A stretch of 64,000 nt of DNA from Acidobacteriaceae bacterium (lineage in GTDB: Bacteria > Acidobacteriota > Terriglobia > Terriglobales > Acidobacteriaceae). The stretch's first letter is position 1. Each line of letters opens with the position of its first letter. The DNA lies in NCBI GenBank assembly GCA_021323655.1, contig JAJPKO010000015.1, positions 62,001-126,000 of the forward strand, in the 5' to 3' direction. A program made the translations under genes and the position numbers. The notes beneath the pieces are model-generated. The model was not told the origin of the DNA and did no database searches. It saw nothing but the letters and a program-made list of their open reading frames with translations. Shown one piece after another: positions 9,564 to 33,677 of the stretch.

Positions 9564-9650
9564 CAGGCCACTCCTTTCGAAAAGGGCGCAGGCCGACGCC
9601 GCCATTCCTTCCCAAACCGCACATCGTTCCATTTCTCCGTCCATCGTGTT

Positions 9651-10421: not shown

Positions 10422-10423
10422 AC

Positions 10424-11569
10424 CTATGCCACCCTATATTTCTCGATCGTCGCTTCGTTCACTTCCACACCCAATCCCGGCCCTTGAGGAATGCGCAACA
10501 TCCCGTCCTCAAGCTGCAAAGGGTTCACGCACAGATCGCGGCTCAGCGGCCCGCTGGTCACATTGAATTCCTGGAATACTGCTCGTCGCATGAACGCATT
10601 TAGGTGCAGCGAGGCCGCAGTCAGCAAGTCTGAAGTCCACGAATGGGGAATGCACAACCGGTTATGAAGTTCTGCCATGTGCACAATCTTGCGCCCGGCC
10701 GTGAATCCGCCGCACCGCGACAAATCGGGTTGAACCACGTCTATCTGCGCGCGTTCAATCAGCGTATTGAATCCCCACTCCGTAGCCTCCTGTTCGCCGC
10801 AAGCAATGAGTGTATCGACGGCTCCGGAAAGCTGCGCGTACCCTTCATAATCCTCTGGCGGTAATGGCTCCTCGATCAGGAACGGCCGGAACTGCTCCAG
10901 CCTCTTCACCATTTGGATCGCTTCCTTCGCGGTGCGGTGCACATACCATCCCGAATCGATCAGCAGCTCTGTACGATCCCCTAGTGCTTTCCGCGCCGCA
11001 AGCACCAGTTCCACATCGCGCTCCGGATCCTCGCCGAACACCCCCCATCCAAACTTCACCGCCTTGTATCCCTGTTCGAGATACCAGCGGCTGGCATCGG
11101 CCATCCCCTCCGGCGTCGAGCGGAACAACGTGCTCGCATATGCCATAACCTTGTCGCGATATCCACCTCCCAGCAACTTGAAAACCGGCTGTCGCACGGC
11201 TTTTCCCAGGATGTCCCAGAGAGCAATATCAATGCCCGAGATCACCTGCATCACAGCCCCGCGCCGCCCGTAATACACCGAGCCCATGTACATCTTGTGC
11301 CACAGGCGTTCCACTTCGAACGGGTCCTCTCCAAGCAGAATGGATCGCAGGCCGAAAAAGCCTGAGACCGATCCTTCAGAGGGAGCTTCGACGATCGCTT
11401 TGGCAACGTGCGGCTGGGTCTCCAGGTCCGCATACCCCGAAATGCCTGCGTCGGTTTGGACCTTTACTATGCCCAGATACTTGATTCCGCGCACTTCCTC
11501 GCCGCGGGTTGACGCGCCGTACGACTCCGGCGATTTCAAAACTATGACCTGCACATCTATGATCTTCAT
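10424..11569 (-). CDS. Enolase-superfamily acid-sugar dehydratase (MR/MLE family)
   Basis: A 381-residue protein with an N-terminal capping domain and a barrel domain. Metal ligands are visible as Asp in LLIDSGW, Glu in FLIEEPLPPEDYEGY and Glu in IACGEQE. The acid/base part includes AVKFGWG (the family's KxK position reads Lys-Phe-Gly) and the His of CIPHSW. This arrangement is shared with an uncharacterised branch of sugar-acid dehydratases that remove water from aldonates to give 2-keto-3-deoxy acids. Its ATG overlaps the TGA of the amidohydrolase gene (ATGA), and the SDR follows after two bases, so all are in one operon. Confidence 0.85.
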   Translation of the reverse strand: MKIIDVQVIVLKSPESYGASTRGEEVRGIKYLGIVKVQTDAGISGYADLETQPHVAKAIVEAPSEGSVSGFFGLRSILLGEDPFEVERLWHKMYMGSVYYGRRGAVMQVISGIDIALWDILGKAVRQPVFKLLGGGYRDKVMAYASTLFRSTPEGMADASRWYLEQGYKAVKFGWGVFGEDPERDVELVLAARKALGDRTELLIDSGWYVHRTAKEAIQMVKRLEQFRPFLIEEPLPPEDYEGYAQLSGAVDTLIACGEQEATEWGFNTLIERAQIDVVQPDLSRCGGFTAGRKIVHMAELHNRLCIPHSWTSDLLTAASLHLNAFMRRAVFQEFNVTSGPLSRDLCVNPLQLEDGMLRIPQGPGLGVEVNEATIEKYRVA

Positions 11570-12414
11570 GCAGAGTCCAATCCCAGGAACTGGAGCGTGG
11601 GGCAGTGGATGAGTTGCTCGATCTGATCCGGACTGAGCCGTGGGAGATTAGTCCCCTCAGCAAAATGATTGATTGTTCGTAGTCCCTCAATCTGCGCCTC
11701 AGGGGTAGTAAACGGATAATCGGAACCGAAGAGAATCTTATCCAACACCCCGTATTCCTTGGCCAGGATCAGTGAGGTGTAGAACTGCCACGGCCGGTAG
11801 TGGAGCGCCGAGATGTCAGAATACACATGCGGATGCTTGCGAATGAGCACCAGCGTCTCCGTTACCCACGGATGCCCGAGGTGCGCAATGATCAGCCGCA
11901 ACTCGGGAAAAGCAATCGCCACATCCTCGAGTTGGATCGGAAACGCGTACTTCAGCGGCCCTGTCCTTACAAACGTCGCTCCCTGGTGGATCATGATGGG
12001 CAGGCGATGCGTCTCGCAGAACGCGTACACGCGCATTAAGCTGGAGTTGGTCGGATGAATGTTCTGATAGATCGGCCCAAGCTTCACGCCCCTGAGCTTC
12101 AGGTTTAGGATCTCGTGGAGCGTTTCTTCGATGGGATCCGTGGCCGGATCAATTGCTCCAAAACCAATGATCTTGTCGGGATGCGCATTGGCATATTGAC
12201 TGATGTACTCGTTTGGCACCGCCAGACCCGAATGACGTGCACGCAAGCCGAACACGATCGCCTTGTCCACACCAGCCATGGCCCTAAAATGCTTCTCCGG
12301 TGGAATATGCAGATCCAGCTTGCTTCCGCGCGACCTCGCATTCGCCTCATTGACGAACTCATCCGAAAGATGCCCCGGGTAGGCCCATGCATGAGTGTGG
12401 CAATCAACGATCAT
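11566..12414 (-). CDS. Amidohydrolase_2-family metal-dependent hydrolase (possible sugar lactonase)
   Basis: A 282-residue TIM-barrel protein. CHTHAW at residues 5-10 gives the HxH metal motif, LPIMIHQGA near 142 and LIIAHLGHPW near 176 add metal-binding histidines, and KILFGSDYPF near 230 gives the conserved Asp. The family includes lactonases (L-fucono- and L-rhamnono-lactonases, 2-pyrone-4,6-dicarboxylate lactonase) and decarboxylases. Next to an acid-sugar dehydratase a lactonase role is most likely, which would make it a second lactonase beside the SMP-30 protein. It has GAGAGG upstream of the ATG at 12414 and overlaps the dehydratase gene by four bases. Confidence 0.8.
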   Translation of the reverse strand: MIVDCHTHAWAYPGHLSDEFVNEANARSRGSKLDLHIPPEKHFRAMAGVDKAIVFGLRARHSGLAVPNEYISQYANAHPDKIIGFGAIDPATDPIEETLHEILNLKLRGVKLGPIYQNIHPTNSSLMRVYAFCETHRLPIMIHQGATFVRTGPLKYAFPIQLEDVAIAFPELRLIIAHLGHPWVTETLVLIRKHPHVYSDISALHYRPWQFYTSLILAKEYGVLDKILFGSDYPFTTPEAQIEGLRTINHFAEGTNLPRLSPDQIEQLIHCPTLQFLGLDSA

Positions 12415-12445
12415 TCCTAGTTCCTCTCATCAATTCCGGGTCTCG

Positions 12446-13315
12446 CTACCCTGGAAATTCAATTCGTGAAAAGAACTCTGGCACCCCGGCGATCTCCGTT
12501 CGCACTCGAAACAACGCTCCCGCGGTCGCATCGCCTTCGGCGGGATTGTTGCCGCCAGCCGTGGTGATGTACATATCTTTCAAATCTTGACCGCCAAACG
12601 TGACGCTCGATACCTGTCCCGTAGGCAACGTGATCCTCTCCGCGATTGCCCCATCCTCCTGCAAGCGGACGACCGCAAACCCATTCCACAGCGCCGACCA
12701 GAGCCTTCCCTGCGAGTCCAGGGTTGCACCGTCGGGAAGCCCCGTCTCCTCGCCAAACCGCGCAAATACACGACGGTTGCTGATCGCGCCAGTCTCCACG
12801 TCATAATCGAAAACATAGATCTGGTTTGCCAGGGAATCCGTATAGAAGAAACGCTTCTGATCTGCGGTGAACGCCATTCCATTTGAGCACCCGATCTCCT
12901 CGAGTACCAGCGAGAGGGTGCGATCCGGATCCAGCCGATATAGTCCTCTCTTCGTTCCGTTGTCATCCACGATCCCACAAAAAACGCGCCCGCGCGGGTC
13001 GGCAATCACATCGTTGAAACGGAAGTCGCGCTCGGCCTCAATCTCCTCTATCACTATGGTCATCACGCCGTCGCGCCAGCGCACCACCGTGCCCCGGTCC
13101 ATGAATAACAGTAGCGAGCCATCCTCCTGGATCGTGAAGCCGCCCACCGGCCGTCCCCCGTAAAACTGCTCGTGAGTGTTGGTCGCAGGATCGTAACGGA
13201 ACATGCGCCCGGCCGGGATATCGGTCCAGTAAAGCCGATGCTCCATCGCGTGCCACAGCGGATTCTCGCCGGTCTCGCAATGATAATTCGCAATAAGTTC
13301 GGGTTGAGACGTCAT
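12446..13315 (-). CDS. SMP-30/gluconolactonase-family sugar lactonase
   Basis: A 289-residue six-bladed beta-propeller enzyme. The metal-site residues of the family are visible: Glu in TGENPLWH (residue 17), Asn in DFRFNDVIADPRG (near 102), Asn in IGCSNGMAF (near 146) and Asp in LPDGATLDSQG (near 195). No signal peptide is present, so it acts in the cytoplasm. The family hydrolyses aldonolactones to aldonates. It lies 31 bases upstream of the amidohydrolase and 13 bases downstream of the RraA-like gene, in a position fitting the step between sugar dehydrogenase and dehydratase. Confidence 0.87.
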   Translation of the reverse strand: MTSQPELIANYHCETGENPLWHAMEHRLYWTDIPAGRMFRYDPATNTHEQFYGGRPVGGFTIQEDGSLLLFMDRGTVVRWRDGVMTIVIEEIEAERDFRFNDVIADPRGRVFCGIVDDNGTKRGLYRLDPDRTLSLVLEEIGCSNGMAFTADQKRFFYTDSLANQIYVFDYDVETGAISNRRVFARFGEETGLPDGATLDSQGRLWSALWNGFAVVRLQEDGAIAERITLPTGQVSSVTFGGQDLKDMYITTAGGNNPAEGDATAGALFRVRTEIAGVPEFFSRIEFPG

Positions 13316-13328
13316 GGCCGCCAGTCCC

Positions 13329-14027
13329 CTACAGTACGCCGTACTTGTCGTACACGTCTCTTAAGTAGGCGCCGCCCATCAGTTCACTCCGGCTCCCGTT
13401 CTCTTTGTCTACCTTCTCGGTCGCCATCTGGATCACCTGCGGGAGAACTTCGGCAGGCACAATCACCACGCCGTCGAAATCGGCGAACACCAGGTCGCCG
13501 GGCTTCACGCTCACGCCTGCGCATACGATCGGCACGTTGTAATCGAGAATCACTCCGCGGCCCTTCGAGTCCACGGGTTTGATTCCTCGCGCAAACACCG
13601 GGAACTGCAGCGCCTGGATCTTTCTCACATCGCGGACCAAGCCGTCGATGACTGCACCTCTGGCTCCTCGCGCACGCGCCGCCGTCGACAGCAGCTCGCC
13701 CCATGGCGCATTCTGCAACGAATCCGCAGTACTCGCGACCACCACTTCACCGGGAAGCACCGAGTCCAGCGCCTCGATCTCCATCGCATAAGGGTCGCTA
13801 GATATGTAGTAGGTATCCACGCACGCCAACGTACGAGCCCAGCCGGCGAAGCAGTCATCCGGTGCAAGTGGCCGCATAAATTCCCTGAGTGCTTGGTTCC
13901 TATACCCCAGTTCATCCAGCGCATCCGATACAACTGCGGTATAGAGTTGAGTCTCAACGTGCCTGAACAACTCTAAATCCGCTCCGGTTGCGGGGTTCCT
14001 CAAGATTCGTTGCGAATAGCTCGTCAT
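13329..14027 (-). CDS. RraA-like / 4-hydroxy-4-methyl-2-oxoglutarate aldolase family protein
   Basis: A 232-residue protein. WGELLSTAARARGARG followed by AVIDGLVRDVRKI is the family signature, where Arg and Asp bind pyruvate and the metal in HMG/CHA aldolases. The N-terminal VSDALDELGY is also typical. True RraA RNase E inhibitors lack the aldolase role and are shorter (about 160 residues), so the aldolase group is the better match. As first gene of the acid-sugar operon it is a candidate aldolase splitting a 2-keto-3-deoxy acid to pyruvate and an aldehyde. The start is uncertain: ATG 14027 has GGGAG only two bases away, while a TTG at 14045 has a weak site; the upstream start would add six residues. 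Confidence 0.82.
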   Translation of the reverse strand: MTSYSQRILRNPATGADLELFRHVETQLYTAVVSDALDELGYRNQALREFMRPLAPDDCFAGWARTLACVDTYYISSDPYAMEIEALDSVLPGEVVVASTADSLQNAPWGELLSTAARARGARGAVIDGLVRDVRKIQALQFPVFARGIKPVDSKGRGVILDYNVPIVCAGVSVKPGDLVFADFDGVVIVPAEVLPQVIQMATEKVDKENGSRSELMGGAYLRDVYDKYGVL

Positions 14028-14900
14028 GGCTCCCAGATTAGCCAACTTCGAAGGCCTGCTGCGGTGAACAGAGTCTCTGAGGTCGATTTCTGTCCGATAC
14101 AGAGGACGAGTTATCTGGAGACAAATCCCTTCTCAAAGGCAGCGTTCATGCCCGCCTAAGAACAGGACGAGGGACATCCGGCTCGGGTGGAAGATGATCC
14201 ATGCCTGACAGTTCATCAGGTGTTTCTTCTTCCGGCATTCACCATGGCGATGTTTTCCTCGCTTCAACTCCGTGCCACCTGCGCAGCTTTGCCACCTGGT
14301 TGGAATGCAGCGAGTCCTGGCGTTCCGACTCGGCAACTGCTCCAGATCTGTTTCGGCTTGTTGCGCCCGGATCGGGTTCCACGACAAGGTGGCACAGCTG
14401 CCTTTCAGACCATCTGGTTGTCACTCTGTTCCGACGTCTTATCGCGAAGCAGCGCGGCGAATAACTCCAGGCTCGTTCCGTCCAGGGAAAACGCCTCTGC
14501 GCACAAACACCTCGATTCTCCGCCGGGAGACATCGAGCTTGCCAGACTGTTCTCAAGCCTATTCATGGCCTCCACTGACACAACACGCTCATCCTGTTCT
14601 CCGCTGGAGTAGACGCCAATGTTCCGCGTTCATTAAGCGACTTCCAGCATCGATATCACGATCACGTGAACAGACGGCATATCTATCTGGTTTATCTTTA
14701 TGTGGTCTCTACCAAGACTAATCGGTTTTCCCCGGGATGCAGCCTTGGCGGTGGTCATTCGAATAGATTCCGATCCCTCGGACTGAAATCCGCGTGGTCA
14801 AAGCGCCACGCTGACCTGCCGATTTATGCGAGCGCTGAAATGGACCCTATCAAATGGAAATCAAGAAAGTCGAATCTTCGCAACAGCGAAGCAAGAGCCG
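14028..14900. other. Gap of about 870 bases upstream of the acid-sugar operon
   Basis: This must contain the promoter of the minus-strand operon starting near 14027. Overlapping open frames at 14133-14387, 14187-14612 and 14272-14721 are Ser/Arg-rich, lack ribosome binding sites and give no recognisable motif. I see no repeats or hairpins of note. It may be decayed coding DNA of unknown origin. Confidence 0.35.
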
Positions 14901-15674
14901 TTATAGCGAGCCGATATAGCGTGAAAGGGAAGCGCCAATGTCCCTGACGATCGTCCCTGCGGCCGATAAATCTTCAATTTGAGCCTTTGTCCCGGATCCA
15001 CTGATCGCTGCCACAACTTGGGCCTTGCTGTTGCGCACTGGCGCCCCGACGCAGCGCGTATCGATCTCTTCTTCTTCATCATCCACGGAGTAACCCAAGA
15101 GCTTCACTTGCTCGCAGGCCATTTTCAGCTTTCGTACCGACGCGATCGTATTGTCGTTATGGCGAATTAGCCCTTGTTTGGTAATAAGGCTCTCGAATTC
15201 TGCGGGGGGCAAATGTGCAATCAGCGCTTTGCCAAGAGCGGTGCAGTGAAGAGGAAACTTCTTGCCAATCCACGTGTTGACTTTGGGCGCTCCGGGAGGC
15301 GAGATCTTTTCAATCAAAACGGCTTCGCCCTCCTCCAACACTGCCAGATGCACGGTAAGACCTGTCCTCTGCATCAATTGGTGAAGAAAAGGGGTGCAGT
15401 GCTCGCGGAGGCTGATTCCGCCTAATGCCATATTGGCAATCGAGCGCAGCCGGGGAGATAAGGTGTAGCGTCCGCTTTCCTTTTCCCGCAGAACGTAACC
15501 GCACCTCTGGTAGGTAACCAAGAGTGCATGTCCAGTGCTGCGCGGCATCTGGAGTTTGTGCGCCACCTGCGATAAAGTGACGCCCCGCCGCGACTGGGCA
15601 AGGTACTCCAGGATATGAAGTCCGCGTTCAAGTGCCGGCACGGATTGAGTCTTCAGCCCGATAGAAGAAGTCAC
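14901..15674 (-). CDS. IclR-family transcriptional regulator
   Basis: A 257-residue regulator. The N-terminal winged helix (LERGLHILEYLAQSRRGVTL then SQVAHKLQMPRSTGHALL) is followed by the IclR effector domain, including LHCTALGKALIAHLPP, YSVDDEEEEIDTRCVGAPV and VVAAISGSG. Such proteins bind aromatic or sugar-acid effectors. GTG 15674 is preferred because AGGAGACGAGG precedes it at correct spacing; another in-frame GTG at 15725 would add 17 basic residues with a poor site. It lies on the same strand upstream of the acid-sugar operon and is its most likely regulator. Confidence 0.87.
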   Translation of the reverse strand: MTSSIGLKTQSVPALERGLHILEYLAQSRRGVTLSQVAHKLQMPRSTGHALLVTYQRCGYVLREKESGRYTLSPRLRSIANMALGGISLREHCTPFLHQLMQRTGLTVHLAVLEEGEAVLIEKISPPGAPKVNTWIGKKFPLHCTALGKALIAHLPPAEFESLITKQGLIRHNDNTIASVRKLKMACEQVKLLGYSVDDEEEEIDTRCVGAPVRNSKAQVVAAISGSGTKAQIEDLSAAGTIVRDIGASLSRYIGSL

Positions 15675-15930
15675 AGTACCTCGTCTCCTAGCCCTGAATG
15701 TATTCGGCTTCAGATCGCCGATCACGATTCGTCAACTATTTTTCGTCCCTCAAGTGCGTAAATACGAGAGACCTGAATTGGAGCACCTGCCCAGTTTTGG
15801 ACTGAGTTAGTCTCGCGGCAAGTCTGAACAGGACTGCGACATGGTCCCGTCTGACAGGAAGACGAAGCTTGGATCATCGTGTTCACCTTGTCACGCTCTA
15901 TAGCCAAAAACCCGACAAAGCTGCTGCTGT

Positions 15931-17070
15931 TCAGAACTCCACCCAGCCTTCCTTGCGATTGCTCTCAATCACCCGTTCAATGAATCGCATGCCGCGAACG
16001 CCCGCTTCGATACCCGGCAGGTTGTCAGGGAGGGCTTTGCCCCGCTTCCAAGCGATGATTGCGTCTGCAAAATCGCAATACAGTATTGCAAAAGCTTCTA
16101 GATATCCTTCAGGATGCCCGGCAGGTATTCGCGAAGCTGCGCGTGCTTCGCCGGCGAGATACCCCGACGAGGCGTGGTAAATCTCTTCCGGCTTGTCGAG
16201 CATTTTCACGGTCAACCGGTTCGGATCCTGCTGTCTCCAATCCAGAGATCCCTTATCGCCCCAGATACGCACACGAATCTCGTTGAGTTCACCGGCTGCA
16301 ACTTGCGAACAGGCCAGCGTGCCCGCCGCACCGTTATCCATGCGCACAAACGCATTACAGTCATCATCTAGCTTGCGTCCTGCGACCACATTTCGTAGGG
16401 TGGCATTGATTGCCATGACGCGCAAACCGCTGATGTATTCCAGAAGATGAAAGATATGTGTTCCGATATCCCCGATCGCGCCACCTGCACCACTGCGTGC
16501 TGGATCTGTACGCCATTCCGCTTGCTTATTTCCCCTTGCTTCCAAAGGGTGGCTCAGCCAGCCCTGAAGGTATTCCACAGCAACCTTGCGTATGACCCCC
16601 AACTTCCCATCTGAGCACATGGCGCGCGCCTGCCGCACCATCTGATAACCAGCATAGGTATGCGTCAACCCGTATGGCAGTCCTGATTTTGTCACGGCCG
16701 CCTCGAGTTGCAAGGCCTCTTCGTAACTCGCCGTCGCCGGCTTGTCGCTCATCACGGGAATGCCTGCCTCAAGCGCCGCCAAGGCCATCGGCAGATGCAA
16801 ATGGTTGGGCGTAACTATCGCTACGAACTCGATACCATCGGCACGGCAGCGCTCAGCTTCAATCATCTGCCGGTAGTCGGCATATGTCCGAGTTGAATCG
16901 ATATGGTAGGCCACCCCGGCGGCACGCGAACGCTCCGACAGATGCGAAAATGCACCCGCAACCATCTCAATTCTTCCGTCTAGTTCCGCGGCTATACGAT
17001 GTACTGGCCCGATGAACGCACCCGGCCCTCCACCGATCATACCCATTCTCAATTTCGGTTCGTTCTCCAT
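15931..17070 (-). CDS. Gfo/Idh/MocA-family oxidoreductase, cytoplasmic
   Basis: A 379-residue NAD(P)-dependent protein. [15 protein letters not shown] at residues 10-24 is the Rossmann loop, [20 protein letters not shown] near 84 the second fold motif, and [10 protein letters not shown] near 107 the EKP-like motif with Lys, with Ser-Asp replacing the usual Cys-Glu. The C-terminal domain has the [16 protein letters not shown] motif with the catalytic-region Asp and His, and [12 protein letters not shown] before it. Homologues interconvert sugars, inositols or their 3-keto forms. GGAGAC lies eight bases before the ATG at 17070. It follows the Tat-exported isomerase-like gene on the same strand by 174 bases, a combination common in keto-sugar pathways. 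Confidence 0.87.
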
Positions 17071-17244
17071 CCCAAGTCTCCGCAGTCTTATTCGTCAGCT
17101 TTGTTTGAAGATTGAAATCGCGGCGCTGACCCAATTCGCCGGAATTCTCCAGGATCGAGCGATTCAGGTCCGATCGCTCTAGGGCAAGACCGCAGGTTGA
17201 AGGCCAAATCTGAACCAGCGCTCGATTTGAGCCTGGGTCGAAGG

Positions 17245-18273
17245 TCATACTCCTCGGGATTGTGTCGATACGGACCTCCTTTCGGAACTCGATGAGCGCT
17301 CGAAGGCGTCGTGCAAACAAGATTTTAGAAAGTGCAAGTTCGATTTGGCCGCCGCCAGCACCCGTGGCACAGCTTCACGCGATATTGCAATTCCCTGCCC
17401 GTCAGCCACGTTGGGAATCGCATAAGCTTGTGAGAAGCTGATCGGTCCTTGGAAGTTTGCCTTTGCAATCAAGGCCAGAAAGTCCTTCCATGGTGCCATT
17501 CCGTTTCCCATCGGACATGAGACTGGCTTCCATTTGCGGTCTCCGCCGCCTGTCCAGGTCATATCTTTTATCGCAAGCATCTTCAGCCTCGGCCTAATCA
17601 AGTTTGAGGCGATGCGCCAGTCGTCTTCACCCTCACTGACTGAAGCATGACCCAAGTCAAAATAGTACCCACACCACTGTGGATCGAGATGCTCAATCAC
17701 ATTTGCCACATCCCAGACTGATCCCCCTACACAACCGGGGTGATTGTGGTATCCGATCTGGACTCCATTTTCTTTTGCAAGTTCCACCAAAGTTCGAAGC
17801 TTGATACCAGCCTCTCGTAAATCGTCAAAGGGACGTGCTGACTGATAGAGGTAATAGCCAGGCTTGATGTAGCGGACTGAGAGCTTGCCCGCGATTTCCA
17901 AAATCGGACGCGCTCCTGGACTGGAGGCGTCCAGCAGTTCGGTGGTCAGCATGGGAACTTCTATGCCTTCGTTCCGAATTGCGGCAATCGCTTTGGGCAG
18001 ATCGGCCTTTGCCCGTTCAGGAAGGACATGTCCATCGCTGCGGACGGATAAATCAATTCCGTCGAATCCAGCTTCCTTAGCGGCTCTTGCGAGTTCCGAC
18101 CATCCCAGTTGCGGAGCCGCTTTCGAGAACAAACAAATCGGGCCCAGAAATTGGGTATGGGTGTCTCCATCTGCGCAACTTGCTGTTGGGGTACTGGGGA
18201 TAACGACGGCGCCAGCGATGGCAGCTGCGGTCGCTTTCTGCATGAAATCGCGTCGCGAAAGATGGTTCAACAT
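17245..18273 (-). CDS. Tat-exported sugar isomerase/epimerase-like TIM-barrel protein
   Basis: A 342-residue protein of the xylose-isomerase-like (AP endonuclease 2) fold. The N terminus LSRRDFMQKATAAAIAGAVV is a twin-arginine signal, so the protein is probably exported folded with its metal. Barrel motifs include GFDGIDLSVR near residue 70, QIGYHNHPGC near 180, CGYYFDLGHAS near 212 and MLAIKDMTW near 247, which carry the usual His, Asp, His and Lys metal or substrate ligands. Start 18273 is chosen for AAGGAG five bases upstream and because it places the Tat motif properly. It is divergent from an MFS transporter across two palindromes. Relatives act as epimerases, isomerases or 3-keto-glycoside lyases. 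Confidence 0.83.
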   Translation of the reverse strand: MLNHLSRRDFMQKATAAAIAGAVVIPSTPTASCADGDTHTQFLGPICLFSKAAPQLGWSELARAAKEAGFDGIDLSVRSDGHVLPERAKADLPKAIAAIRNEGIEVPMLTTELLDASSPGARPILEIAGKLSVRYIKPGYYLYQSARPFDDLREAGIKLRTLVELAKENGVQIGYHNHPGCVGGSVWDVANVIEHLDPQWCGYYFDLGHASVSEGEDDWRIASNLIRPRLKMLAIKDMTWTGGGDRKWKPVSCPMGNGMAPWKDFLALIAKANFQGPISFSQAYAIPNVADGQGIAISREAVPRVLAAAKSNLHFLKSCLHDAFERSSSSERRSVSTQSRGV

Positions 18274-18323
18274 AATCTCCTTGCCCGTTAGACAAGTGAC
18301 ATCCGTTAATTTTCTTACATGCA

Positions 18324-18341
18324 ATTTTTGCGTGCAAAAAT
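18324..18341. promoter_or_regulatory. Perfect palindrome, likely operator
   Basis: ATTTTTGC-GT-GCAAAAAT is a perfect inverted repeat with 8-base arms and a two-base centre, in the divergent region between the Tat isomerase-like gene and the MFS transporter gene. It lies two bases from a second palindrome. A dimeric repressor site is the natural reading; the cognate regulator is unknown. Confidence 0.55.
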
Positions 18342-18343
18342 AG

Positions 18344-18358
18344 TAGCATAGTATGCTA
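18344..18358. promoter_or_regulatory. Second perfect palindrome overlapping a likely -10 element
   Basis: TAGCATA-G-TATGCTA is a perfect inverted repeat with 7-base arms. Plus-strand TATGCT at 18352-18357 could serve as a -10 with TTGCGT at 18328-18333 as a weak -35 (18-base spacing), placing both palindromes across the MFS promoter. Confidence 0.55.
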
Positions 18359-18417
18359 TAAAATTTCTTCATGACTTATCTGCTTTTTGCGTCAGCCGAG
18401 GAGATGTGGAAGCTGAC

Positions 18418-26647: not shown

Positions 26648-27664
26648 TTATGGCCGCAGCCAAGCATCACGGTATTCCGAAATGAAACGGTCGTCTTCAG
26701 TGCAGAGATCGGGATAACTGTGGCAGACCCGATCAATCTCCTCGCTTTGACCTGGAGAAAGAGAGCTCTGCAGATTGAGCGACCAGATGCCCTCTAACAA
26801 TCCTTGTCGACGCAGAACTTCATGAATGCCAGGGATGCACCCATGAAAATCATGTGCCGGATCGAAAATTGAGGCGTTCATGTCCGTGATCTGCTGGGCC
26901 AGCGTTAGCTCGTTTTTAGAAATCGGTCCCTCATGAGCCTTAACTTTGGCCAGAAGCGCCACAGCGCTCTTGGTCCAGACCGCCCAATGGCCAAGAAGAC
27001 CTCCCGCAAAATGAGTGCGATTGCCCTCGAATTCAAATTCAGTGAGCAGATCGACCAGAATGTTGTCATCGTTGCCGGTATAAAGAGAGATTTCCTGGCA
27101 TCTCCCGCTTTCCACGACGGCACGTACGACATCCAAAGTCTGATAGCGATTAAATGGAGCGATTTTTATGGCAACAACATTATCGATTTCAGCAAAGTGG
27201 CGCCAGAACGCATAGGGAACGATGATTCCGCCAGCAGCCGGCTGGAGATAAAACCCAACTACAGGAACAATTGATGCTATCGCGCGCGCGTGGTCCAATA
27301 TATCGGATACGGTTTCCCCTTTGAGCGCATTCATATTGAGAAGCACCGCGTCGTATCCGATCGACTTTGCGAGTTCGGCTTCGGCAACCGCTTGGTGCAA
27401 CCTTCCGCACACGCCGGCAATCTTGACTACCTCGTGAGTTCGCGCTTCCTCCGCAGCCAGTTCTAAGACAGGTTTGAGGAGACCACAGTCGCGGATTTCG
27501 AACTCAGTGGTGTGGACTCCCACAGCAATTCCGCCCACTCCGGCGGCAAGATAGTAGCGAGTCAGAGCCCGCTGCCGACGTTCGTCCAGTTTTCGAGCTT
27601 CATTCAAAGCAAGCGGATGTGCAGGGATGACGTGACCCTGACGCAACATTTGTCGGACATTCAT
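26648..27664 (-). CDS. DapA/NAL-family aldolase or lyase
   Basis: A 338-residue TIM-barrel protein of the dihydrodipicolinate synthase/N-acetylneuraminate lyase family. VVAIKIAPF carries the Schiff-base lysine and VVGFYLQPA the catalytic tyrosine. The usual GTTGE loop before them is replaced by GVGGIAVGVHTTEFEI. It is somewhat longer than classical DapA (about 290 residues), mostly at the C terminus. Its ATG overlaps the TGA of the epimerase gene by one base (TGATG), so the two are translationally coupled and likely act in sequence. The family splits or forms 2-keto acids; substrates here are unknown. Confidence 0.83.
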   Translation of the reverse strand: MNVRQMLRQGHVIPAHPLALNEARKLDERRQRALTRYYLAAGVGGIAVGVHTTEFEIRDCGLLKPVLELAAEEARTHEVVKIAGVCGRLHQAVAEAELAKSIGYDAVLLNMNALKGETVSDILDHARAIASIVPVVGFYLQPAAGGIIVPYAFWRHFAEIDNVVAIKIAPFNRYQTLDVVRAVVESGRCQEISLYTGNDDNILVDLLTEFEFEGNRTHFAGGLLGHWAVWTKSAVALLAKVKAHEGPISKNELTLAQQITDMNASIFDPAHDFHGCIPGIHEVLRRQGLLEGIWSLNLQSSLSPGQSEEIDRVCHSYPDLCTEDDRFISEYRDAWLRP

Positions 27665-28701
27665 CAGAAGCTTCCGTTCTGTACATCAAAGTGTGTGGGT
27701 TTGTTCAGCAATTCGCCTCCATTGGAGATCCACCACGCTACCCAATCCATCAATTCCTGCGGTGTTACGGTTGGATATCCGAAGAGCCTGTGAGCCTTGG
27801 TGCTGTTACATATCAATGCGAAGGAAGTCTCCTCCGAACTGAAAATGGGCTCGGCTCCCAAGCGCTGGCCGAATTGATGCGCGATGTAACGTACCGAGAG
27901 CGTCTCTGGACCGCTGATGTTCAATTCCAGCGGTGGCGCCTGACAATGCGCGAAGCAGCGGAGACAAACTGAATTTGCATCTCGCTGCCAAATGAAGTTC
28001 ATGACCCCATTGCGAAGATCAATGGGCTGTTTCCGATACACCGCCAGGGCTATATCGACTAAGACCCCATAACGAAGTTCGACAGCATAGTAGAGCCGTA
28101 AGAGAGTGGAAGGAGTGCCCCATTGGCTGGCGGCATATTGAAACATCCGCTCACGACCAAGGGCTGATTGCCCATACTCGCCATCGGGCCCGATAGACGC
28201 ATCTTCGTCGCATCCACCGCGGGTGATGTTCCGTAGCTTATAAACGTTGCCAGTTGAAAACGCAACAATCTTCGAATCCCGGAAGCGCTCCGCCACGAGG
28301 CCAGGTAGGTGGGCATTCATAGCCCATGTAAGATGTTCCGCCCCATCGGTCCCGAATTTGCGCCCCGCCATGAACACAACGTTAGCCGCATCGGGGAGTT
28401 CCTGTAATGCGCCCGGATGTAGAAGGTCAGACTGAATGGTCTCTATCCCATCTTTTCGCAACTGCGACTGCAGCTCTCGGTCGGAGAATCGGGCGACCGC
28501 GATCACTCGCTTCTCAATACCCGCCATGTTTGCAGCCCGACGTGCCAGTCTGGCCAGACTCGGACCCATCTTCCCGCCCGCCCCCAAGATCAGCAGATCG
28601 CCTTTGAGGTTGGCCATGGCTTGTGCGTCGTTCTCAGTTGGTTGAGAGAGCCGATCCTCTAGTTCTGGGATGGTCCGGATCAGATGATTTTCCACGGTCA
28701 T
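27664..28701 (-). CDS. NAD-dependent epimerase/dehydratase family protein
   Basis: A 345-residue extended-SDR protein. LLILGAGGKMGPSLARLARRA near residue 38 is the nucleotide-binding loop (GxGGxxG), VVFMAGRKFG near 108 the second fold motif, and VAFSTGNVYKL near 145 the Ser/Thr catalytic strand. The catalytic Tyr sits in GEYGQSALGRERMF, where the expected YxxxK reads YGQSALGRE, so the lysine is not in its normal place. ATG 28701 has AAGGCGG upstream; a longer reading from 28782 has no such site. It is translationally coupled to the DapA-family gene and follows the ceramidase-like gene on the same strand by 119 bases. Confidence 0.78.
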   Translation of the reverse strand: MTVENHLIRTIPELEDRLSQPTENDAQAMANLKGDLLILGAGGKMGPSLARLARRAANMAGIEKRVIAVARFSDRELQSQLRKDGIETIQSDLLHPGALQELPDAANVVFMAGRKFGTDGAEHLTWAMNAHLPGLVAERFRDSKIVAFSTGNVYKLRNITRGGCDEDASIGPDGEYGQSALGRERMFQYAASQWGTPSTLLRLYYAVELRYGVLVDIALAVYRKQPIDLRNGVMNFIWQRDANSVCLRCFAHCQAPPLELNISGPETLSVRYIAHQFGQRLGAEPIFSSEETSFALICNSTKAHRLFGYPTVTPQELMDWVAWWISNGGELLNKPTHFDVQNGSF

Positions 28702-28820
28702 GTTTCCGCCTTGTGATGATTCATTTTCAAAGAGAATCGGAGGAGCGAAGTCATGTCGCTCGCGAGTGGAAGGTTCAGTCAAAGAACTTCGGTCATGAGC
28801 AAATTCACATTGCGTGTTGG

Positions 28821-30200
28821 TTATGGCAGACTATGCCAGTTGGCGTTGGGCACATTTTCTAATCTACCGAGCATTTTGTAGACTTCAATGACGGCATGAT
28901 TCACCATCTGCTCTCCGGCGCCCAGTTCCACCCAAGTAGACGTACTCGAGGCTCCGTAACCGCCCGCAACTCCAGCCTCGATCGACGGAAAGTAGCCGGC
29001 ATACCCGTTTGTGTACCCCATGAAGAAACAGTCATGTACAGGGCAACGTTCCCGCCAGTTCACCTGGAATTCGACGAAGGGCTCTCCAGGCATCGTCATA
29101 AACGCAATCTTGCGGTTGATCAGCAGTGTGTTCACTGGAAGTTGGATTTCTTTCTCAATTGGGGGTGCAAAGAGCTGGAACGCTTCCGTTCCCATCTCAC
29201 GAATTGTTTGAAGTCGGAACTTCTCGGGATCCCACCGCAAACTGAAGGGCAGCTGTTCTTCGTCAAAGTCGATGCGCTGATCAGGCTCCGACAGCGTATC
29301 GATTTTTCTGGTTATATCAACCACGGCCTTGCCAAGCTTCTCTCCCGCCCAATCTCGCCTGCCAACTGCATCTTGACTGACAGGCGTGCCCGCATCGTAG
29401 ACATTGATGTCTCCAGCGGCGCCCTGCATGAAGAACGCCAGCGGGTGACTGCTATAGCTCTGCTCGACAAACTTGCACATGACGCCCGGGAAGTCGGCCG
29501 AAAACATCAACATGCCAGAATCGAAGGTCACTGGATGAGCTGCATAATTGACCAGGATGGCCAAGGGCTGCCCGTCCTCCCGATCGATGCGAAGAATCGC
29601 GATCGTAGGATCGACCGGCCACGTTGGAGCACGAGAGGCATTTCCCCAGATCATCGTGACTTGTCCGTTAGAAGAATCGACGCGCACACGGTTATATCCG
29701 ATGTATGACTCTCCGTAGCCGACTCCCATGCGCACAGTAACAACATGCTCGCGAGCCTGCTGTATGCCTTGCCCGATTTTTACAAGCGCAGCAGTTTCCC
29801 AGGGTGGCGTTCCGGAAGCATACGCATCCTTGATGACCGGGCCGGCATGAGTGTGCGTTGCCTGAACGATCAGATCGTCCACTCCAATTTTCTTGGCATC
29901 GCGGCGCAGAAGTTCGAGCGAAGCGGGTCCAAACGTCCTCCCCAAATCGAGGTCGATGTAGGCGAGCCGCCGAACTCCATCATCGAGAACCAAGACACGG
30001 GCGTAAAGAGGGTCCAGGACACCCTCGGCGCCTTTCAAGCGATCGAAGTACCCCCACATGTGAGTGCCGAGTGGAGGTGTGATATCGACTAACGCAACTC
30101 CAGCCTTCATCTCTGCCCCGTTTGCCCGAAAACCGGCTGCGAGAAAGAAGCCGATGATTACGGTCAATAGAACTCGATCTGCCTTCGAAGGTTGCGTCAT
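28821..30200 (-). CDS. Exported neutral/alkaline ceramidase-family protein
   Basis: A 459-residue protein with an N-terminal signal (about residues 1-29). AGVALVDITPPLGTHMWGY opens the neutral ceramidase N-terminal domain; VQATHTHAGP near 113 holds zinc-ligand histidines, NYAAHPVTF near 219 another, and FMQGAAGDINVYD near 259 a conserved loop. Full neutral ceramidases have about 650-750 residues with a C-terminal domain missing here. The shorter group is widespread in acidobacteria and planctomycetes and is not proven to hydrolyse ceramide. Its neighbours are sugar enzymes, so a carbohydrate-ester or amide substrate is as likely as a lipid. Confidence 0.82.
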   Translation of the reverse strand: MTQPSKADRVLLTVIIGFFLAAGFRANGAEMKAGVALVDITPPLGTHMWGYFDRLKGAEGVLDPLYARVLVLDDGVRRLAYIDLDLGRTFGPASLELLRRDAKKIGVDDLIVQATHTHAGPVIKDAYASGTPPWETAALVKIGQGIQQAREHVVTVRMGVGYGESYIGYNRVRVDSSNGQVTMIWGNASRAPTWPVDPTIAILRIDREDGQPLAILVNYAAHPVTFDSGMLMFSADFPGVMCKFVEQSYSSHPLAFFMQGAAGDINVYDAGTPVSQDAVGRRDWAGEKLGKAVVDITRKIDTLSEPDQRIDFDEEQLPFSLRWDPEKFRLQTIREMGTEAFQLFAPPIEKEIQLPVNTLLINRKIAFMTMPGEPFVEFQVNWRERCPVHDCFFMGYTNGYAGYFPSIEAGVAGGYGASSTSTWVELGAGEQMVNHAVIEVYKMLGRLENVPNANWHSLP

Positions 30201-30381: not shown

Positions 30382-30951
30382 TCAGCCCGCAACGTTGGTT
30401 TCTCCTCCGTGTGCAGTCTGCGAGAGGCACCGTTGCTTTCTCCACTCGCAGAGCAAAGAATCTAGACCTGCAATGCGGCCCGTCTTGAAAGACGACAGCA
30501 AAAGAACTGCTGCGAACTCAATGAGATTTTTGTCCACAATTAAGTAATTGCCTTCCTGGCCTAAGCGGTGAACGCCGTCCAGCGGCAACATTGTCAGATA
30601 GAAGACGGCAAGCAGCGCGAGTGCTGCACCGCATCCCAGCTGGGTAAAGGCACCAAGAATTAGGGAGAGGCCAATGGCCAGAAGCGCAGCAATTACGACG
30701 AGGTCAATCCAGTGTCCCCAACCTTCCGCGTACAGTCTATGCAAAAAATGCCCCACTGAGCCGGTGCTGGCCGCCAAATATCCCTCCGAGCTCCATTTGC
30801 CCAGACGAGTCCCGTCCGGCGCCCAAGCGGGCACGATGAATTTGAAGTACCCCTCATAGAGGAAATGCCAGCCTATCAAGGAGCGAAGTGTGACCAATGC
30901 AAACTGCTGGAAACTGGAGAGCGATGCCGAAGCTGGTTTATCTATTTCCAA
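30382..30951 (-). CDS. DoxX-family membrane protein
   Basis: A 189-residue inner-membrane protein with four hydrophobic segments. ALVTLRSLIGWHFLYEGYFK is the first helix of the family, VVIAALLAIGLSLILGAFTQ the second, GAALALLAVFYLTMLPL the third, and LIEFAAVLLLSS the fourth. A long loop after helix 1 (about 40 residues, FIVPAWAPDGTRLGKWSSEGY) is typical of the group related to DoxD, the quinone-reducing subunit of thiosulfate:quinone oxidoreductase. It starts 14 bases inside the ApbE gene, so the two are coupled. It may link a periplasmic oxidation to the quinone pool. Confidence 0.83.
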   Translation of the reverse strand: MEIDKPASASLSSFQQFALVTLRSLIGWHFLYEGYFKFIVPAWAPDGTRLGKWSSEGYLAASTGSVGHFLHRLYAEGWGHWIDLVVIAALLAIGLSLILGAFTQLGCGAALALLAVFYLTMLPLDGVHRLGQEGNYLIVDKNLIEFAAVLLLSSFKTGRIAGLDSLLCEWRKQRCLSQTAHGGETNVAG

Positions 30952-31993
30952 AGTTCACCTCCACCTGATCGCTCGATCCAATTATGGTCGGGCGCGACAA
31001 ATCACTTTCAAGAAGCATGATTGCAACAATGCCGGGATGCGCAGAGCAATAGCGTTCTGCGAGCTCTTTCCCGCCCACGAAAAACGCGGTTGCGAGGGCG
31101 TCAGCTTCAGTAGCGGAATGAGCTAATACTGTCACGCTGACGACACTTCTCACCGGCCATCCCGAACGCGGGTCAAGAATATGCCCGTAGCGCAGTCCTT
31201 CGATTTCGATCGACTGTTCTTCCTGACCACTGGTACCTAGAGCGTAGGAATGCAACCGCACCGTACCTATCCGTTGGTTTTTGAAGATCGGATGCCGAAG
31301 ACCGACATTCCAGCCGTGCCCGTCCGGTCCGTCCCCTAAGGCCAACATGCTGCTGTTACCAGCGCTGAGCAAAGCGGTCACGATTCCGCGCGCACGAATC
31401 CTCGCTGCTCCTTGATCTAGCGCAAAACCTTTTCCGATGCCTCCGAAGTTGATGCGCAGCCCTGTTGCAAGGAATGAAACAACGCCTTGTCGGTTGAACG
31501 AGATGCGATGGAACCCAGAAGAATTTCGCGCGACCGCCAGTGCTTCGAGCGACGGAATTGACGGTCTGCGAGCCTCAAAACCCCAGCACTTGCTGAGCGC
31601 CCCCGAAGTCACATCGAAGGCTCCGCCCGTTTCGCGATGCAATAGCTCGCAAAGTTCGAGAAGGGCCAGGAGTTCTGGTCCGACATAGACGGCACGCTCA
31701 GCCGCCAAACAATTAAGGACGCTCACCTCACTATCTGGCCGGAAGATCGACAGAATTGATTCCAGACGATCGACTACACGGAAATATTCCTCTGAGACAC
31801 TGACTGCGATCTCACATTCAGGAGCAAAAATAGCTTCGAATTGGCAAGCCATAGCAGAACGCGAAACCCGAGTCCATTCGCTTGAGCGAGGCATGGGTTG
31901 GCTACGCCACCGCGCAAGGAGCTCTCGGCGGGTTGGCTCCCAATTCTGCACGATGCTTTTGCTCTTAACTTTATGCATGGACAAACCGACCAC
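30938..31993 (-). CDS. ApbE-family FAD:protein FMN transferase
   Basis: A 351-residue protein. LESILSIFRPDSEVSVLN near 77 is the opening signature, GAFDVTSGALSKCWGF near 124 and INFGGIGKGFALDQGAARI near 178 the FAD-binding parts, and HSATEADALATAFFVGG near 302 the Mg-binding Asp region. ApbE enzymes move FMN from FAD onto a Thr or Ser of a target protein, normally in the periplasm. This one shows no lipoprotein or Sec signal, and no neighbouring gene has an obvious FMN-acceptor motif. GTG 31993 has GGGAAG seven bases upstream; ATG 31978 is an alternative. The Gfo/Idh gene ends 35 bases upstream. Confidence 0.85.
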   Translation of the reverse strand: MVGLSMHKVKSKSIVQNWEPTRRELLARWRSQPMPRSSEWTRVSRSAMACQFEAIFAPECEIAVSVSEEYFRVVDRLESILSIFRPDSEVSVLNCLAAERAVYVGPELLALLELCELLHRETGGAFDVTSGALSKCWGFEARRPSIPSLEALAVARNSSGFHRISFNRQGVVSFLATGLRINFGGIGKGFALDQGAARIRARGIVTALLSAGNSSMLALGDGPDGHGWNVGLRHPIFKNQRIGTVRLHSYALGTSGQEEQSIEIEGLRYGHILDPRSGWPVRSVVSVTVLAHSATEADALATAFFVGGKELAERYCSAHPGIVAIMLLESDLSRPTIIGSSDQVEVNFGNR

Positions 31994-32028
31994 TTGGCTG
32001 CTTCCCGATCAACAAGGTAGTTGAAAAC

Positions 32029-33339
32029 CTACGCAAACTCTTGAGGCCTGACTCTCTCCTGCGATTTGAGTGCTTTGTTGATCGCCAGGCAAGTAAGTAC
32101 GACGTTGCGAGCGTCCGAAAGCGAACAGCGGAGCGGAGCGCCAGTTCGAATCGCCCCGCAAAATGCGGCGATCTCATTCTGGAAGGCTTCCCTGACGCCG
32201 CCTGTTGCGGCTGCGCCTTGCGCCAATGCGGAATGATCAGCCCCTTCTGCGCGCCGCGTAGCCGAGGCATCTAGCACCGGTTGGGAGCCGCTCACGGCCG
32301 CGGTCGAAACGCTCGTAACCCCATTTCGTTCTTCCATAAAGAGTAGTGACTCGCCATTTCCCAGGATGAGAGTTCCTTTTGTTCCCAGGATTTGTATGTA
32401 ACTACCTTCGAATCCATTCGACTGGATTACAGAAAGCATCGCAGTTCTTGCATTGGGATAATCGAGAGTCGCATAAACATGGTCGTCGACGTCTCTGCCA
32501 TCCTTATAGGAGTAAATTCCGCCCATTGCCTGCACTGACGTAGGAACCGCATCGAGGAACCAGTTAATGGTTGAGACAATGCTCCCGCCCTCGTCGCCCA
32601 TTGGTCCGCTTGAATACTGTTGATAGAGGCGCCAGTTCAGCAGGTGCTCCAGTGATGAATAGCCCCACGGCCGGGGGTCGAACTTGGCGTCACTTGAGGG
32701 GCTTTCTAGGCGCGCCGAGCTGTTGGTATGGTGGGTGGCCTCCACGGTGTACACGTCCCCCAACAGGCCTTGCTTCATAATGTTGCGATATGCAGCCCAA
32801 TTGGACGGATCGTACTGTTGCTGATATCCGATGTGGAGAATGCGCTGGTTTTTCTGGGCAACTGAGATCATTTCCTCGCAAGCTCGAGCGTCTGTGGCCA
32901 TCGGAGGCTCACATAAGACGTGCTTGCCGGCCGCGAGGCTACCGATGGCGATCTCTCCATGTAGCCACGGCGGAGTCGCAATCATCACAGCCTCGATCGA
33001 TTGGTCGTGCAGTAGACGGCGCCAATCCTCAAACCAACTGACCCCCGATCGCTGGTCTGCATTTGATTTCGTCGAAGGTCTTATATCGCATATGGCTACG
33101 AGTCTTGCGAGATTTGGGTCGATACAGTTCCGCAGGACATCGGCTTGCACTCCATCACCGATCAATGCGAGCCGCACAGCTTCTCGCCGCCGCGGACCCT
33201 TGAAGGCCACGGTGGTGCCGAATGCAGCCAAAACAGAAGCTCCACTCGCAGCCTTGAGAAAATTCCGGCGCCCAATCCTACGCATCTCAGGCGACGACGA
33301 GAGCGCTCTTCTCCGCCTCACCGATGATTCAATCGACAC
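32029..33339 (-). CDS. Tat-exported Gfo/Idh/MocA-family oxidoreductase
   Basis: A 436-residue protein with a twin-arginine signal: RRIGRRNFLKAASGASVLAAF. The Rossmann part (VRLALIGDGVQADVLRNC, VAICDIRPS, AVMIATPPWLHGEIAI, HVLCEPPMATD) is followed by the substrate domain with FDPRPWGYSSLEHLLNWRLY, GGSIVSTINWFLDAVP and GGIYSYKDGRDVDDH. The EKP-type motif reads CEPP, so the usual Lys is replaced. Exported members such as glucose-fructose oxidoreductase keep their cofactor bound. Start is uncertain: GTG 33339 has GGAGG nine bases upstream; ATG 33285 would begin exactly at the Tat motif. It heads the series with ApbE and DoxX and is a paralogue of the 56702-57922 gene. Confidence 0.82.
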   Translation of the reverse strand: MSIESSVRRRRALSSSPEMRRIGRRNFLKAASGASVLAAFGTTVAFKGPRRREAVRLALIGDGVQADVLRNCIDPNLARLVAICDIRPSTKSNADQRSGVSWFEDWRRLLHDQSIEAVMIATPPWLHGEIAIGSLAAGKHVLCEPPMATDARACEEMISVAQKNQRILHIGYQQQYDPSNWAAYRNIMKQGLLGDVYTVEATHHTNSSARLESPSSDAKFDPRPWGYSSLEHLLNWRLYQQYSSGPMGDEGGSIVSTINWFLDAVPTSVQAMGGIYSYKDGRDVDDHVYATLDYPNARTAMLSVIQSNGFEGSYIQILGTKGTLILGNGESLLFMEERNGVTSVSTAAVSGSQPVLDASATRRAEGADHSALAQGAAATGGVREAFQNEIAAFCGAIRTGAPLRCSLSDARNVVLTCLAINKALKSQERVRPQEFA

Positions 33340-33677
33340 GAGCAGCACCCTCCATGGCGACCTCCGTCACTTCCGCGGCAAGAAATGCTTTGAATTCTAT
33401 GATCTGCCTTCGCCGCAAAAGCGAGGCTAAATTTCCGAACACTAACAATTGACGGTGGTTTTCAGTATACTCGACTTTTATTACTGCTATCAAGAAACAA
33501 TGTCTTGACAGATCCCTCTCCAGGGACTAACTTTCTTCCATCCAGAAATGGAATGCTGGCCAGTGGGTGCTCAGACACAGGCGATGCTGACGACGGGCAA
33601 AATCGCTACCGTCGCACTCCTCCTGTTTGAGCAAACTTGAGATGCCTTTGACTTTGGCGGGAGCATGGGAGGCTCTG
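33340..33677. promoter_or_regulatory. Divergent region with a candidate promoter for the TonB receptor
   Basis: On the plus strand TTGACA at 33505-33510 followed after 17 bases by TAACTT at 33528-33533 is a reasonable sigma-70-like promoter for the receptor gene. The ribosome binding site GGGAGG is at 33667-33672. AT-rich sequence at 33460-33500 probably serves the minus-strand Gfo/Idh series. No gene is seen in this stretch. Confidence 0.4.

Follow-up and report, generated by a model that had tools for sequence, protein, structure and literature searches.

A putative flavin-wired Gfo/Idh, ApbE and DoxX module encoded in an Acidobacteriaceae genome

Results

A three-gene locus with a proposed flavin-wired function

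We analysed a 64,000-nucleotide stretch (hereafter the window) of contig JAJPKO010000015.1 from an Acidobacteriaceae bacterium (assembly GCA_021323655.1, positions 62,001 to 126,000 of the forward strand), in which three consecutive minus-strand genes encode a Gfo/Idh/MocA-type protein (Gfo1), an ApbE-family flavin adenine dinucleotide (FAD):protein flavin mononucleotide (FMN) transferase and a DoxX-family membrane protein. On balance, we think it somewhat probable that this trio forms a flavin-wired, periplasm-facing dehydrogenase module, with FMN on a Gfo/Idh protein exported by twin-arginine translocation (Tat) and electrons passing to quinone via DoxX. This reading draws on the conservation of the trio, on a candidate flavinylation site in the linked Gfo/Idh proteins and on related DoxX fusion proteins. 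The features of the trio are as follows.

32029-33348 (GTG start), minus strand: Gfo1, with a Tat-type N-terminus GRRNFLKAASGASVLAAFG; the Lys and His that we take to be catalytic are lost
32257-32271, minus strand: candidate flavinylation site D-A-S-A-T; the acceptor Thr codon would be 32257-32259, residue 343 of the ATG-start protein
30938-31993, minus strand: ApbE, with the Ser/His/Asp triad kept, TRRELL near the N-terminus and no hydrophobic signal region
30382-30951 (TTG start), minus strand: DoxX-family membrane protein with the pattern GWHxLYEGxxK ... E, overlapping ApbE by 14 bases

The serial order Gfo/Idh, ApbE, DoxX and the 14-base overlap, described in a first-pass annotation of the window, were recovered when its open reading frames (ORFs) were checked, all on the minus strand. 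The length of the overlap holds provided both starts are right, and an identical overlap occurs in a paralogous copy (L001). The gap between Gfo1 and ApbE was 35 bp, measured to the GTG, a spacing compatible with one transcription unit. For Gfo1 itself an ATG start (32029-33285, MRRIGRRNFLKA) is more likely than the GTG; the paralogue in locus L036 begins alike. Gfo1 has the Gfo/Idh/MocA fold and Pfam domains (PF01408, E = 9.9e-22) and ApbE matched PF02424 (E = 3.2e-65). The window DoxX scored 15.8 bits against PF07681, below the gathering cut-off of 23.6; homologues from L044, L206, L176 and L234 exceeded it (24.5, 31.4, 32.6 and 24.0 bits) and those of L178 and L259 fell below it. The proposed tie of a probably exported Gfo/Idh to ApbE and DoxX was also supported. 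The twin-Arg signal of Gfo1 is visible and scored 15.3 bits against TIGR01409, just below the cut-off of 16.7; L037 scored 20.0 bits against PF10518, likewise below its cut-off (22.7).

The sequences suggest the following mechanism. Acting in the cytoplasm, the signal-less ApbE would move FMN from FAD onto the Gfo/Idh precursor, at a Ser/Thr within a flexible loop near its C-terminus. Judging from the Tat motif, the folded, cofactor-loaded protein would then be exported and anchored or docked at the membrane. Electrons from a sugar or glycoside may pass from bound NAD(P) to the covalent FMN, then to DoxX and the quinone pool, a direction of flow that is assumed here.

Conservation of the trio across genomes and phyla

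Co-occurrence of the three families, on which the first-pass proposal depended, was borne out by a genome survey, with trios in the window's phylum and Planctomycetota and DoxX-Gfo pairs in Bacteroidota. Searching 297 genomes of the window's phylum with the window ApbE gave a match in 186. DoxX and Gfo lay beside ApbE in 12/14 close loci outside the window's own genome (L005-L018), the exceptions being L008, whose genome has a DoxX-Gfo pair 12 kb away (L178), and L018. A DoxX profile (A2) was found in 33/297 genomes of the phylum. All 14 matches of at least 214 bits (12 genomes plus both copies in the window's own) were located in ApbE-DoxX-Gfo clusters, the next score being 191, which argues that the trio is not a chance arrangement. 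There were 27 second-tier matches (139-191 bits), two more below 31 bits being set aside. Among the 24 second-tier matches inspected, 7 were fused to a C-terminal domain and 17 were separate genes; every one of the 17 adjoined a Gfo, and ApbE stood beside 11 of them, 1 being divergent. Neighbouring genes were taken from a codon-usage caller, which overlooked ApbE in L233 and L235; longest-ORF calling was poor in GC-rich loci.

In Planctomycetota, DoxX of this kind occurred in 20/294 genomes, 18 of which matched partially owing to a long insert. Loci were fetched from 15 of the 20 and, two being too short, 13 were evaluated: ApbE was adjacent in 12 and Gfo in 8. The insert itself (L233-L245) spans some 200-300 residues and looks coiled-coil-like by eye. 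Such DoxX proteins were found in 7/296 Bacteroidota genomes; with genome G303 included, DoxX immediately preceded a long Gfo in 8/8 loci, and no ApbE was present in the stretches fetched for these eight. When genome contigs were scanned with the trio Gfo, ApbE or DoxX flanked 8 of the 80 loci retained. Among the matches listed, Gfo with ApbE and no adjoining DoxX occurred in Armatimonadota and Bacteroidota, and of the named sequences L054, from an Acidobacteria metagenome-assembled genome, came closest to the trio Gfo.

At the genome level, ApbE was detected in 29/31 genomes with a DoxX match of at least 138 bits versus 157/266 others (Fisher test, P = 6e-5), a count biased toward the linked kind because the query was the window's own ApbE. 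ApbE was likewise present in 25/27 further genomes with such a DoxX or a trio-Gfo relative versus 7/14 controls. One of the exceptions (G143, 98% complete) had no detected ApbE, which fits the model since its DoxX-linked Gfo lacks the site described below.

A candidate flavinylation site in linked Gfo/Idh proteins

Several features of the linked proteins indicate that the Gfo/Idh is probably the flavin acceptor. The structural model of the window Gfo had a mean predicted local distance difference test score (pLDDT) of 83, and residues 323-363, which include the candidate Thr, fell below 50 and are predicted to be disordered; the only other such stretch was residues 19-27. In an alignment (A5) of 30 ApbE- or DoxX-linked Gfos, where rows L060 and L061 fit after a shift of one, the site column held Ser/Thr in 25 (14 Thr, 11 Ser, 5 others) within an otherwise variable loop. 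The published flavinylation motif is D-x-x-[S/T]-G-A-[S/T] (PMC12052999). A clade of long Gfos carried D-x-x-[ST]-[ST]-[AP]-[ST] in 15/17 rows, mainly as DAVTSAT, DAVTTAT, DTVTSAT and DGISSAT; the two deviants were L204 (DAVASAT) and L231 (EAITSAT). The trio clade, with a pattern of the form xSAT or xSES, carried DASAT, DTSAT, QASES, EASET, QASDS and DAYET. A quick tree built from 125 Gfos placed the long proteins of DxxTSAT type in one supported group and the trio Gfos in another, so two Gfo clades carry the site; it may nevertheless have had one origin, followed by losses.

The occurrence of the site was counted in 177 non-redundant full-length Gfos, with ORFs of at least 100 aa taken into account in their surroundings. 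The set excludes 29 Gfo ORFs shorter than 330 aa, 38 truncated at a sequence end, 26 duplicates and 2 containing N. A near-canonical pattern near the C-terminus, D..[ST][GAST][AP][ST], occurred in 12/41 DoxX-adjacent Gfos, 3/20 with ApbE only and 0/116 with neither, and the trio pattern in 14/41, 3/20 and 2/116, respectively. Either pattern was thus found in 26/41, 6/20 and 2/116 (P = 5.5e-17, a value inflated by kinship). A coarser count with slightly different patterns left the direction unchanged. With the patterns already fixed, a control set of the 30 best BT_2158-type loci gave the near-canonical pattern in 0/34 Gfos and the trio pattern in 2/34. We also looked for a canonical target inside the cluster by scanning the proteins predicted in the first 19 neighbourhoods for D..[ST][GA]A[TS], a pattern without Ser at the Gly position; this returned one unrelated match.

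A flavinylation-type motif also occurs, at a different position, in a seemingly unrelated enzyme that is fused to DoxX of this subfamily, which would place a flavin beside DoxX. Nine different DoxX-TIM fusions were identified (L176, L177, L179, L184, L185, L201, L232, L258 and L259), each with a DoxX part, a Tat-like anchor, a linker and a TIM-barrel-like domain; 'TIM barrel' is our reading of the sequence, and Pfam gave this domain no name in the two fusions scanned. The linkers read HAITGAT (two), HAVTGAT, DTVSAAT, DGLSSAT, DAMTSAS, DAVTSPT and TFVASPT, with none in L258, so that three contain an exact TGAT, and two of these three have ApbE as a neighbour. ApbE lies directly downstream of the fusion in L176 and L177; the site count left both unflagged, as it considered distances of up to 900 bases, starting at the DoxX domain. 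We regard these fusions as the strongest single argument for a flavin next to DoxX. In layout they resemble one-chain flavinylated quinone-linked enzymes.

It is possible, though unlikely in our judgement, that ApbE flavinylates some other, unlinked protein and that Gfo and DoxX are mere parts of a sugar-catabolic locus. The strict motif, D..[ST][GA]A[ST], was present in 0/177 Gfos, and the window's own genome (G000) does encode a canonical FMN_bind protein with NISGAT, though this adjoins its own ApbE, the third of the genome (contig C61) and of the ordinary kind. Retention of the trio across phyla, the enrichment of the site in linked Gfos and the TGAT of the DoxX-TIM fusions argue the other way. 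So does a genome-wide search by family in 14 genomes (13 relatives and the window's own), in which FMN_bind was found in 5/14, DUF2271 in 1/14 and NQR2/RnfD above cut-off in 4/14. None of these three known target families was detected in G009, G125, G188, G050, G024 or the 72%-complete G266; the target families DUF3570, Flavodoxin_4 and FMN_red lay outside the searches, which leaves this alternative some room. In G024, the trio ApbE was moreover the sole ApbE at the threshold of the window-ApbE search.

Role and location of ApbE

Linked ApbEs keep the Ser/His/Asp triad named for ApbE transferases (PMC12052999), with the exception of L045, where Glu replaces Asp. A hydrophobic signal region was detected in 4/33 DoxX- or Gfo-linked ApbEs versus 11/13 unlinked ones (Fisher test, P = 6e-6; 46 non-redundant rows of 125 matches, at a threshold of our own), and the ApbE of L176/L026 scored just below this threshold while still lipoprotein-like. 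Because most linked ApbEs lack such a region, they are probably cytoplasmic flavin-attaching enzymes rather than electron carriers. Tat substrates fold in the cytoplasm, so a cytoplasmic ApbE could modify the Gfo ahead of export. Cytoplasmic ApbEs acting on cytoplasmic targets are known (PMC12052999). The first-pass idea of a flavinylated link to DoxX therefore survives in part: a flavin acceptor is probable, namely the Gfo/Idh, and ApbE as a link within the periplasm does not agree with the scarcity of signal regions.

Two further observations concern ApbE. Many linked ApbEs of the window's phylum and Planctomycetota, including that of the window (30938-31993), keep an N-terminal RRx[FLV] or RRx[FL][LF] without a hydrophobic stretch. 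In two genomes of the window's family (loci L052 and L053), a Tat-type Gfo whose loop contains TGAS occurs together with an ApbE that has a hydrophobic signal region and with a gene that, judged by eye, resembles a flavin reductase; there is no DoxX.

Alternatively, the linked ApbE may not be a transferase and may instead bind or hydrolyse FAD, supplying or carrying non-covalent flavin for the Gfo-DoxX pair. ApbE homologues with FAD pyrophosphatase activity are indeed known (PMC4767422), and the trio-type site deviates from the published motif. However, conservation of the transferase triad and the DxxTSAT-type site in the sister DoxX-linked clade make this rather unlikely, and FMN transfer to the Gfo/Idh remains our preferred role for ApbE.

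A duplicate trio and two kinds of Gfo/Idh in the same genome

The trio is duplicated in the window's genome (65 contigs): the other copy, on contig C49, shares 62-66% identity with the first and preserves its order and 14-base overlap. After this copy come another Gfo, a ceramidase-like gene, a 475 aa gene (DegT-like by eye), an epimerase and an aldolase. This region (L036, C49 25000-44000) is a copy of most of the cluster, comprising Gfo1, ApbE, DoxX, Gfo2, ceramidase-like, DegT-like, epimerase, dihydrodipicolinate synthase (DHDPS)-like and glycoside hydrolase (GH) 3 genes. Between the Gfo1 copies, non-synonymous (dN) and synonymous (dS) divergence were 0.27 and 1.61, with similar values for ApbE and DoxX; the resulting dN/dS of ~0.13-0.17 for all three genes, with dS near saturation, fits purifying selection.

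The Lys (EKP) and His presumed to be catalytic are intact in most Gfo relatives and absent from both Gfo1 copies. The Lys motif CEKxMA reads CEPPMA in the window and CETGIA in the copy, and the His motif ELGSHQ reads DEGGSI and EWGGRV, respectively. Window Gfo1 further has GDGVQA where GxGxxG is expected, its last Gly being gone. With these three residues lost, sugar oxidation by the window Gfo through a tightly bound cofactor, as first proposed, is unsupported. The window encodes a paralogue in which these residues are retained:

56702-57922, minus strand: Gfo/Idh paralogue Gfo2, with the CEKMMA Lys and EWGSH His kept, the twin-Arg changed to QQ, and the hydrophobic region and site loop lost

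Gfo2 also keeps the glycine loop residue lost in Gfo1. It shares 67% identity with the Gfo2 next to the C49 trio and 36% with window Gfo1, and neighbours GH20-like, AXE1-like and DegT-type genes. Both Gfo1/Gfo2 pairs clustered with the trio Gfos in the quick tree. As Gfo1 appears exported and site-bearing and Gfo2 catalytic, a single ancestral enzyme seems to have split in two. In this organism, Gfo1 would provide the export signal and flavin site and Gfo2, in the window and beside the second trio, the catalytic residues; a bold reading is that they form a heteromer exported via the Gfo1 signal. Tentatively, and with some doubt, we suggest that the system may represent a new class of respiratory dehydrogenase, in which FMN tethered by ApbE to an exported NAD-type Gfo/Idh delivers electrons to quinone with DoxX as a further membrane partner. 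Here it would be a two-subunit enzyme, with Gfo2 as catalytic hitchhiker and Gfo1 as flavin subunit.

These data also bear on the original proposal, that the window Gfo oxidises the sugar itself and a periplasmic, flavinylated, ApbE-dependent carrier hands the electrons to DoxX. Trio co-occurrence, an exported Gfo and relatives with intact Lys and His would suit it, but the missing Lys, His and third glycine of the window Gfo and the lack of a hydrophobic signal region in 29/33 linked ApbEs render it improbable. It is very improbable that the trio is decaying in this genome and its dehydrogenase dead: both Gfo1 copies have lost catalytic residues, but the purifying-type divergence noted above and the retention of signal, site, ApbE triad and overlap in both speak against decay.

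Evidence weighing against a flavin-wired module

A number of observations count against the flavin-wired reading, several of which concern the site. Besides the missing strict motif, Ser replaces the motif Gly in the trio-type site and Glu often replaces the Ala. The site column ranked third among Ser/Thr columns, where those above and some just below (some with 24/30) belong to the conserved core. The patterns were drawn up post hoc, the 116 unlinked Gfos are mostly distant ones, and the trio pattern is not rare, occurring in 20/392 called proteins in the equivalent C-terminal stretch (linked Gfos included). The unlinked relatives L056, L063 and L069 retain a loop Ser/Thr. A DoxX-linked Gfo subclade (L180, L181, L246, L251 and L155) lacks the site, yet ApbE lies nearby in L180 and L252. 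Genome G194 (92% complete, 290 contigs) encodes a Gfo with DTVTSAT and no ApbE was found in it, a misfit unless the assembly failed to capture the gene; in its genus-mate G154, ApbE stands beside DoxX. No Gfo was found beside ApbE-DoxX in 5/13 Planctomycetota loci, and the ApbEs of the TIM-fusion loci (L176, L177) resemble exported lipoproteins. The catalytic motifs of window Gfo1 are degenerate, and 23 kb separate it from Gfo2. Finally, the DoxX-to-quinone step is drawn by analogy from the role of the family in thiosulfate:quinone oxidoreductase (TQO), a quinone-linked enzyme. By sequence, the window DoxX had no solved relative, and its fold search gave no match at E 0.001 or better (top NACHO/TMEM35A, E 0.39; the vitamin K carboxylase match was not significant).

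In the site-less subclade, a conserved DVRESV[SA]P occupies the place of the Ser/Thr site, and no ApbE was detected in the genome of L246.

Genes surrounding the trio

The genes downstream of the trio, each also present in the duplicate cluster, are:

28821-30200, minus strand: ceramidase-like (PF04734) hydrolase
27664-28782, minus strand: NAD-dependent epimerase-like protein
26648-27664, minus strand: DHDPS/N-acetylneuraminate-lyase-like aldolase

No NapH-, MsrQ-, PepSY-, DsbD- or NQR/RNF-like class was found among the downstream genes scanned, some neighbours being left unscanned. The neighbouring GH88, GH3, GH20-like and esterase genes suggest a glycan substrate, and point to nothing finer. 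A second sugar-related set lies at 8145-18372 (minus strand), with GH39, enolase-superfamily, another Gfo/Idh and xylose-isomerase-like TIM-barrel genes.

Comparison with known systems

The closest parallel is with ApbE-dependent extracytosolic flavin systems, in which ApbE likewise adjoins a membrane electron-transfer partner and a redox protein whose Ser/Thr motif is of flavinylation type (PMC8238504, PMC11334425). In these surveys the membrane partners are NapH-, MsrQ-, PepSY-, DsbD- and NQR/RNF-like, with NQR, RNF, Nos, Pce and extracellular electron transfer systems characterised, and the targets include FMN_bind, NqrB/RnfD, DUF2271, DUF3570, Flavodoxin_4 and FMN_red; Flavodoxin_4 targets gained an inserted loop with the motif (PMC8238504 / PMC11334425). 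In the trio, by comparison, DoxX would be the membrane partner and a Gfo/Idh the target. ApbEs bearing a signal peptide were tallied in PMC8238504, whereas most linked ApbEs have none.

Glucose-fructose oxidoreductase, aldose-aldose oxidoreductase, DgpA and glucuronide 3-dehydrogenase (PDB 1h6d, 5a02, 7xr9, 8tdi) share the Gfo/Idh fold with the window protein (Z 35.5 to 36.3) and differ from it in that window Gfo1 lacks the catalytic residues. Some of these enzymes are exported with a bound cofactor. As a group they re-oxidise the cofactor using a second sugar, and we know of no ApbE or DoxX partner for them. The BT_2158 glycoside 3-dehydrogenase (NF058561) was the top NCBIfam match of the Bacteroidota DoxX-linked Gfo of L206 (136 bits, cut-off 750) and matched the window Gfo at 58.8 bits, also below cut-off. 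Neither an adjoining DoxX or ApbE nor a near-canonical site was seen in the 30 best loci of BT_2158 type, which were short stretches and of which 15 scored above cut-off. DoxX and DoxD, the TQO subunits, are small helical membrane proteins of the same Pfam family (L234 scored 21.0 bits against DoxD, cut-off 22.7); unlike in TQO, no thiosulfate partner was seen, and the proteins described here belong to a separate GWHxLYEG subfamily that occurs with Gfo and ApbE.

The ApbE-Gfo/Idh-DoxX unit seems not to have been described previously, in agreement with the first-pass annotation, which knew of no system of such make-up. 'DoxX' and 'Gfo' are absent from the main texts of both flavinylation surveys (PMC8238504, PMC11334425). 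No paper was found for ApbE with DoxX, or for flavinylat- with Gfo, in a search whose scope excluded subscription papers, preprints and supplements, and among the papers listed on DoxX and quinone none, judged by title and start of abstract, dealt with such an arrangement. DoxX proteins are common and mostly without an assigned partner, and, to our knowledge, how exported Gfo/Idh enzymes dispose of electrons without a second sugar is an open question. If correct, the flavin-wired reading would answer both, and would extend ApbE flavinylation to a target fold and a membrane partner that are new to it. It may also account for some of the genomes with 'orphan' apbE genes left open in PMC8238504.

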